Below, in pieces: positions 13,118 to 17,991 of a stretch of 22,336 nt of DNA. The notes beneath the pieces are model-generated. The model saw only the letters and a program-made list of their open reading frames with translations. It did not search any database and had not been told where the DNA came from. Both the position numbers and the translations under genes were made by a program. Numbering within the stretch: position 1 is the first letter of the stretch; the number at the start of each line of letters is the position of its first letter. This DNA comes from a virus, in the IMG/VR virus record IMGVR_UViG_3300045452_000008, positions 1-22,336 of that record; one strand, written 5' to 3'.

Positions 13118-14638
13118 TCAGCCCAGCATTCCGGCTGCTGGGTCTCGGGTCTGGTAGGCAGGGATGCGCGCGGCCGGGCGGTTGGCGCTGGTAACGGCCT
13201 GAATACCGCCGGTCTCCATGGCTGCGTACTGCAGCGCGTCGTGCGGGTGCGAGAACTTGTTCTTGACGGGTTCGTCGGTGTAGCGCTCGTCGCCGGTCAC
13301 CTGCACGCGGCGGTACTTGTAGCCACCGTTGAAGCCCTTGCGCAGAAGCCGGCAGTCCTCATCCAGCAGGAAGGCTGGCTGGCCACCGATCAGCTTGGAC
13401 AGATACCAGGCCACGGCGCCACGGCGCGGCAAGAAAGCGTTGGTCTTGGCGGCGCGGATTTTGAGGTTCTTGGCCCGCACTTCCTGGAAGCACGACTTCT
13501 CATCGGTCTGCGCCTTCTGCTCGCCGGCCGGATCGCCGACCAGCTCGATCATCGTGTCCTTCTTGCGCCACCAGGCGTCGTAGTTCGTCACCAGATACGG
13601 GATCAGTGCGTCCTCCAGGAACTGGCGGATGCCCATGTCTTCGCCGCATATCTCGTCCAGCACCAGGATGCGGCCACGCGCGTCGGTCTGCGTGATGACA
13701 GCTGCCGGCGTCAGGCCGAAGTCCATGCCGATGACCAGCTTGACGCCCTGCACGGCATAGATCTGCCGCACGTGCATGGCCTCGTTGAACTCCTGGTACA
13801 CGGGCTTGCCGTCGTGCACGCTGCCGTACTGGCCCAGGATGTAGACCTTGATCCAGTGCTCGGTCTTGCCGGCCACCTGGCGCAGCCAGTAGCCGTAGCC
13901 CATGCTGTGGTTCTGGACGTTCTCGGCCTCGGGGTTCGGGATGTACTTGCCGTCAGGGTTCTTAATCAGGGCCCCGGGCTGGGCGAAGAACTCGTAGAGC
14001 GGCTGGTCCTCTTCCATAAGGCCCATCTCGACCAGCTGGCGGACCAGATCGGCGCGCTGCTCGAGTTCCTCCGGTGTCGGCTCCTCGGCCAGCATGTAGT
14101 ACCAGTGGTCGTCGTCAGGCGAGTTGGTGTCCATGATCACGCCAGACCACGTGCACCCGCCCTGGGCCTTGCTTGGATAGCGACCCACGCGGCCAGTGGC
14201 CATGTCGAACACGGCCTTGGGCAGTTCGCTGACCTCGTTGAGCCAGATCCCGGTCAGATCAAGGGATTTCAGCTTCTTGACGTCATCCGGGCGGTCCAGC
14301 GACAGAAACAGCAGCTCGATCTCGACCTTGGTGCCATCCGGCAGCCGGCGCTCAAACACCGATACGATCGGCGCGCTGTAGACCGTGGCCGCACCTGGCG
14401 CCCAGTCTTCCCAGGTCTTGATGGTCGTGGACTTGAGCTCGGGGTAGCTGTTACGCACCGCAGCCCAGCGGGTCTTGCGCACGCCGTTCCAGGCCTCTTG
14501 CTCGACGCCGCGGCGGATGATCTCCATGCAGCAGGTCACTGACTTGCCGGTGCCAATGGGCCCGCGCAGGCCGCGCACAAAGGCCTTGGATCGGTGGAAC
14601 TGCTTGGCGGTCGGCTCGGCGTTGTAGACGATGCTCAT
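13118..14638 (-). CDS. terL: Terminase large subunit
   Basis: 506 residues; the ATP-driven packaging motor and endonuclease. Walker A is GPIGTGKS at residues 26-33, and Walker B with catalytic Glu is TGIWLNE ending near 135. A TNSPDDDHWY segment near 171-180 fits the coupling motif. The RNase-H-like nuclease has acidic residues in GMDFG (Asp306), GDPAG (Asp369) and HPHDALQ (Asp467), the expected three. The start ATG overlaps the stop of the small subunit as ATGA. All key residues look intact. Confidence 0.95.
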   Translation of the reverse strand: MSIVYNAEPTAKQFHRSKAFVRGLRGPIGTGKSVTCCMEIIRRGVEQEAWNGVRKTRWAAVRNSYPELKSTTIKTWEDWAPGAATVYSAPIVSVFERRLPDGTKVEIELLFLSLDRPDDVKKLKSLDLTGIWLNEVSELPKAVFDMATGRVGRYPSKAQGGCTWSGVIMDTNSPDDDHWYYMLAEEPTPEELEQRADLVRQLVEMGLMEEDQPLYEFFAQPGALIKNPDGKYIPNPEAENVQNHSMGYGYWLRQVAGKTEHWIKVYILGQYGSVHDGKPVYQEFNEAMHVRQIYAVQGVKLVIGMDFGLTPAAVITQTDARGRILVLDEICGEDMGIRQFLEDALIPYLVTNYDAWWRKKDTMIELVGDPAGEQKAQTDEKSCFQEVRAKNLKIRAAKTNAFLPRRGAVAWYLSKLIGGQPAFLLDEDCRLLRKGFNGGYKYRRVQVTGDERYTDEPVKNKFSHPHDALQYAAMETGGIQAVTSANRPAARIPAYQTRDPAAGMLG

Positions 14639-17341: not shown

Positions 17342-17399
17342 CCAAGCACCCGCCCGGGTCCTATGAGCGCGGAGCATCCGGGCGGGGTGGTTTGCTTGG
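17342..17399 (-). other. Long compound hairpin, 16 paired bases
   Basis: Outer stem CCAAGCA (17342-17348) pairs with TGCTTGG (17393-17399). Inner stem CCCGCCCGG (17349-17357) pairs with CCGGGCGGG (17378-17386). A 6-base bulge lies on one side only, and the loop is 20 bases. There is no T-run, so it is not a terminator. An alternative small hairpin (GGTGC/GCACC) overlaps its left edge. It could be a transcript structure or a DNA recognition site. Confidence 0.65.
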
Positions 17400-17591
17400 G
17401 CTACGCTGATTTGCCCATCAGCGAGAGGCCGGCCCTCTTGCACAGATCAGCAGGATGGGAATTGCTGCGTGCTGTCGGGCCCTGGCGTGGTGTCCTCGGG
17501 CTCGACCTGGCGGTCCGGTTTTGATGAATCCAGGGCTGCGCTCCCGTCTGTGCACTGCGAGAGTTTGGGTGATGGGGCGAGCCCTTGGAAC

Positions 17592-17667
17592 TGGTTGCAG
17601 CGGCTGGACTTGAACCAGCGACCTTCGGGTTATGGGCCCGACGAGCTACCAACTGCTCCACGCTACA
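17592..17667 (-). tRNA. Initiator-like tRNA-Met (anticodon CAT)
   Basis: 76 bases with encoded CCA. Arms: acceptor TGTAGCG/CGCTGCA (one G-U pair), D stem GAGC/GCTC, anticodon stem TCGGG/CCCGA with loop CCCATAA, T stem GCTGG/CCAGC with loop TTCAAGT, and A73. Initiator hallmarks present: three G-C pairs at the base of the anticodon stem and A11-U24 in the D stem. Instead of the usual unpaired C1-A72 it has a weak U1-A72 pair. The anticodon arm and variable loop match E. coli tRNA-fMet except that U33 is C, which is very unusual in bacteria. Confidence 0.9.
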
Positions 17668-17915: not shown

Positions 17916-17991
17916 TGGCACCGAGGGAAGGACTCGAACCCTCAACCTCTGGTTTTGGAGACCAGCGCTCTGCCAGTTGAGCTACCAGGGT
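17916..17991 (-). tRNA. tRNA-Trp (anticodon CCA)
   Basis: 76 bases with encoded CCA. D stem GCTC/GAGC, anticodon stem CTGGT/ACCAG with loop CTCCAAA, and T stem GAGGG/CCTTC (one G-U) with loop TTCGAGT. Trp identity is supported by anticodon CCA, G73 and A1-U72. The acceptor stem ACCCTGG/CCTCGGT has two adjacent mismatches (C4-C69 and U5-U68), so folding or charging may be weakened. It lies 248 bases ahead of the Met tRNA in the same transcript. Confidence 0.88.

Follow-up and report, generated by a model that had tools for sequence, protein, structure and literature searches.

A phage-borne initiator-type tRNA-Met gene with C at base 33, and its counterparts in other phages and in cells

The comparisons made in this work indicate that the tRNA-Met gene at positions 17592–17667 (minus strand) of the window, by which we mean the whole stretch of DNA analysed (22,336 bases, the full length of its IMG/VR record, with the gene set of a tailed phage), is probably an ordinary phage-borne initiator tRNA gene, in which C33 would be a tolerated substitution derived in this phage. 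Since C33 is also found in other phages and in whole bacterial groups, it is, on this distribution, an uncommon but natural variant of the initiator and not a new device.

Structure and initiator features of the tRNA-Met gene

ARAGORN calls a tRNA-Met(cat) at this site, and the Rfam tRNA model scores the gene at 62.6 bits (E 1.2e-11; gathering score 29). In the ARAGORN structure the cloverleaf is intact, with zero mismatched pairs: the acceptor stem UGUAGCG/CGCUGCA forms seven pairs, of which U1-A72 is the first and U3-G70 a wobble; the D stem GAGC/GCUC gives A11-U24; the anticodon stem UCGGG/CCCGA provides the three G-C pairs 29-41, 30-40 and 31-39; the variable loop has five bases, the T stem is perfect, and A73 is followed by an encoded CCA. 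The anticodon loop reads CCCAUAA, with CAU as the anticodon and C at base 33 (position 17635, C on the minus strand). The initiator features present are the CAU anticodon, the three G-C pairs, A11-U24, and A73 with CCA, and across bases 22–49 the sole difference from the E. coli initiator gene is at base 33. The match to tRNA and to initiator features is far beyond chance. An initiator-type, phage-borne tRNA-Met with C33 and U1-A72, its anticodon arm equal to that of bacterial tRNA-fMet save for one base, is what the sequence-only reading had described, and ARAGORN, Rfam, the structure and the E. coli comparison bear it out. Elongator Met or Ile2 identity was considered and ruled out by A11-U24, the GGG/CCC stem and the match to the E. 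coli initiator. We regard it as very probable that the gene, the exact form of which is covered by one contig only, encodes a working initiator.

The 1:72 position is occupied by a pair that is Watson–Crick but weak, the usual state of an initiator being a mismatch; among viral initiator-like genes with CCA, U-A also occurs at 1:72 in 12 of 80 that have U33 and in 6 of 20 that have C33. A weak pair of the U1-A72 type still permits formylation in E. coli, and in the window tRNA it may stand in for the usual mismatch. We suggest that the transcript would be processed by host enzymes, that the tRNA would be charged with methionine and then formylated, and that in the ribosomal P site it would then begin translation, adding to the host's supply of initiators during infection or taking its place. 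An initiator goes straight to the P site and bypasses decoding in the A site, the step for which U33 and the U-turn are most important. It is probably because initiators skip A-site decoding that C33 can be tolerated. Eukaryotic initiators with C33 agree with such tolerance (PMC9023262).

Two other roles had been put forward from the sequence, namely that of a decoy and that of shifting the choice of start sites in favour of phage genes with certain start codons. GTG and TTG starts are indeed present in the window, as is usual for phages, and GTG opens 2 of 10 checked genes. However, eight of the ten start with ATG (as given by a mechanical ORF list), the anticodon, CAU, is that of every initiator, and in some bacteria C33 appears to belong to the main initiator, so that neither role finds support and both seem to us highly improbable.

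Genomic setting, related phages and the probable derivation of C33

Genes of the window encode terminase subunits, a portal, a major capsid protein, a tail fibre and HNH endonucleases. The terminase large subunit gene (TerL; 13118–14638, minus strand; PHROG phrog_2, E 2.8e-20) served as the anchor for finding related phages, and the tRNA-Met gene sits 2.95 kb upstream of it. A companion tRNA-Trp(CCA) lies at 17916–17991, again on the minus strand (ARAGORN; Rfam 58.7 bits). It carries two adjacent acceptor mismatches, C4xC69 and U5xU68, and a canonical anticodon loop; positions 17930–17984 within it show a 96% match to the tRNA-Trp of Caulobacter phage CcrSC, and the Trp acceptor stems of related phages, unlike that of the window, are fully paired. 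Downstream of the tRNA-Met gene there is a strong G+C-rich inverted repeat at 17350–17390 (CCCGCCCGGATGCTCC...GGACCCGGGCGGG on the minus strand). The search for a promoter of the tRNA pair gave a single 9/12 match where shuffled sequences gave 0.3 on average, which is not convincing, and PADLOC identified no defence-system genes among ten proteins tested near the tRNA-Met gene. At the megablast level no near relative was found among named phages, the tRNA-Trp being the sole match, and host assignment from TerL and capsid relatives was rejected, since these relatives are too distant and their hosts mixed.

Related phages were represented by 89 viral loci fetched via TerL similarity. A CAT tRNA is present in 12 of them, always 0.4–2.5 kb upstream of TerL and on the same strand, and in all 12 base 33 is U and the 1:72 pair is absent. 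Absence of the 1:72 pair is a mark of initiators. Eleven of the 12 genes are without A11-U24, which the locus L005 has, and most have GGA/UCC, not GGG/CCC, in the anticodon stem; the related genes are therefore initiator-like mainly at the acceptor end. On four contigs (L410, L420, L434 and L441) a tRNA-Trp(CCA) is found close to a 1:72-unpaired tRNA-Met upstream of TerL; the window has both genes, in the reverse order.

In L005, the TerL of which is 88% identical to that of the window, a tRNA-Met gene occupies the equivalent place upstream of TerL, and a 3' flank common to the two genes shows 80% identity over 17525–17650. From this position and the short shared flank, the window and L005 genes appear to be orthologous. 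They are separated by six both-sided compensatory stem changes (4:69, 5:68, 6:67, 12:23, 27:43 and 51:63), and since changes on both sides of a pair are expected from selection on structure, these argue for a working tRNA in the window phage as well as in L005.

Other tRNA-like sequences occur in the relatives. L005 contains two such stretches (~438–507 and ~534–617), Gly(TCC)-like and Ala-like respectively, with good T arms, CCA ends and abnormal D arms, and neither ARAGORN nor Rfam calls a tRNA in them. In L004 (~1453–1530) the site of the window's tRNA genes is taken by a tRNA-like relic, in which the D arm is canonical and the acceptor ends are complementary but a canonical T loop is lacking. 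If the window tRNA-Met were likewise drifting or decaying, C33 and U1-A72 would be early changes, neutral or mildly deleterious, in a tRNA for which the phage no longer has any need. The mere relic in L004, the abnormal D arms in L005 and the two acceptor mismatches of the neighbouring tRNA-Trp would fit with this; the tRNA-Met itself, however, is without any mismatch, and all six of the pairs listed above have changed on both sides. We consider decay unlikely and favour a working initiator.

With U33 and an unpaired 1:72 in all 12 relatives, C33 and U1-A72 look derived within the TerL-related group, unless the window tRNA was acquired separately, which is possible given its close match to initiators of the E. 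coli type. The related phages also bear on whether C33 might be an artefact of the sequencing or assembly of one metagenomic contig. Only one contig carries the exact gene, and L003, a 97% relative, ends 126 bases before the matching region that precedes the tRNA. T at base 33 in related phages had been named by the sequence-only reading as an observation that would refute it; its presence in L005 and in all 12 tRNA-Met genes near TerL points to C33 as a derived variant and does not show it to be an error. C33 also recurs in numerous independent viral contigs and in phage isolates, so that an error is a needless assumption, to which we attach almost no weight.

C33 in phages and in cellular genomes

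An 18-mer was matched exactly in 37 viral contigs in its form with C33, and in at least 120 in its form with T33. When viral initiator-like genes were scanned with base 33 left open, the 80 listed loci comprised 8 with C and 72 with T, a C33 rate of ~10%. Bases other than U at 33 are less frequent in the non-CAT viral tRNAs of the fetched loci (18/603, or 3.0%, 13 of the 18 being C) than in the initiator-like genes (8/80; Fisher p = 0.007). Both the rate and this comparison are estimates, as sampling was in scan order and the sequences are phylogenetically non-independent. Named phages that carry C33 initiator-type genes include Donnerlittchen, D3, FBPa47 and PfAn1, the tRNA of PfAn1 being without A11-U24. 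Over the stretch compared, the C33 initiator-type tRNAs of a viral contig (L026, 825–842) and of a Spartobacteria genome bin (L237, 2309–2329) are identical, which suggests a recent exchange, an element common to both, or wrong binning.

Initiators in cellular genomes, like those in viruses, were surveyed with fixed-stem patterns, which miss initiators with other stems. Among the matches listed in a genome scan with a 21-base C33 pattern are Weissella, Leuconostoc, Fructobacillus, Erysipelotrichaceae, Phycisphaerae, Patescibacteria and DPANN archaea. The GGGCNCATAACCC match has C33 in 27 of 28 sampled genomes of Weissella and in 13 of 19 of Leuconostoc, and a T33 match was found in none of either genus; the genomes that gave no match are perhaps incomplete or have a different stem. 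Where initiator matches with GGG/CCC have a pyrimidine at base 33 in the sampled genomes of both genera, it is always C. Each of two single-contig Phycisphaerales chromosomes has one match only, with C33 and within an Rfam tRNA; matches in 149 sampled genomes of the same phylum mostly have T33, so that C33 would be confined to some clades of that phylum. Some bacteria appear to use C33 initiators only, and C33 is, as far as these patterns reach, compatible with being in a bacterium's main or only initiator. Single matches to GGGCGCATAACCC or GGGCACATAACCC were recorded in further genomes (G009, G177, G020, G071 and others), in some cases beside a usual initiator; these may be G33 or A33 tRNAs, or chance. 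Our literature search, which covered mostly papers outside subscription journals, found none that deals with C33 in the initiators of bacteria or phages.

C33 had been held in the sequence-only reading to be known mainly from animal initiator tRNAs, which the bacterial and archaeal genomes contradict, and to be exceptional enough to call for a special function; it is instead the rule in some bacterial genera and recurrent in phages, isolated ones included. One such function would be escape from a host anticodon nuclease (e.g. a VapC that targets tRNA-fMet), the phage tRNA serving translation starts after the host initiators have been cut. Changes in the anticodon loops of phage tRNAs have been proposed as an escape from host tRNases (PMC10264068), VapCs of several bacteria cut the initiator tRNA in its anticodon arm (PMC4105405, PMC8522696), and C33 recurs among phage initiator-like genes, all in keeping with such a role. 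However, the VapC of enteric bacteria cleaves the initiator between A38 and C39 (PMC4105405), both of which are unchanged in the window tRNA, C33 being on the opposite side of the loop. Further, U33 is kept by 12 of 12 tRNA-Met genes of the related phages, phages that face a VapC targeting tRNA-fMet are reported mostly to do without this tRNA (PMC10264068), and as C33 is standard in some cellular initiators a phage-specific cause is needless. Nuclease escape is thus a possible but weak proposal, and one that we think quite improbable. We are equally doubtful of the broader proposition that phage C33 is recurrent and adaptive, evading nucleases or other host factors that read the U-turn of the initiator, with initiation still working since C33 is tolerated.

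Significance and comparison with known initiators

Considered alone, the tRNA-Met of the window is one more phage initiator-type tRNA and of little import. The occurrence of C33 in Weissella and Leuconostoc and in about one-tenth of phage initiator-like genes agrees with a lesser need for U33 in initiation than in elongation, and the distribution of C33 makes this view easy to test. In addition, TerL-related phages repeatedly keep an initiator-like tRNA-Met upstream of the terminase, and in some cases a tRNA-Trp(CCA) as well; such retention points to a requirement in infection that these phages have in common.

Comparison with individual genes places the window tRNA, probably an ordinary phage initiator, among known ones. 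The L005 gene shares its genomic place, 3' flank, A11-U24, A73 and CCA, but has U33, an A1xA72 mismatch and a G30-U40 wobble. The E. coli initiator (encoded in an array between mltA and amiC) has the same anticodon arm save for base 33, together with A11-U24, A73 and CCA; it differs in having U33 and a C1xA72 mismatch. The tRNA-Met of Janthinobacterium phage vB_JliS-Donnerlittchen (ON529854.1), which adjoins the terminase large subunit gene, has U1-A72, A11-U24, GGG/CCC, the loop CCCAUAA with C33, A73 and CCA, as in the window, although this phage is a siphovirus of another family (Mesyanzhinovviridae) and its tRNA has C-G at 27-43 and another acceptor stem. Pseudomonas phage D3 (AF165214.2) and other Detrevirus members likewise carry an initiator-type tRNA-Met with C33, A11-U24, GGG/CCC and CCA; unlike that of the window, it has a C1xU72 mismatch and belongs to another phage group and gene context. 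Finally, the chromosomal initiator of Weissella and Leuconostoc combines a GGG/CCC anticodon stem, C33, CAU and A11-U24 just as the window tRNA does, but it is a cellular gene, mostly with a C1xA72 mismatch, and its CCA is not encoded.
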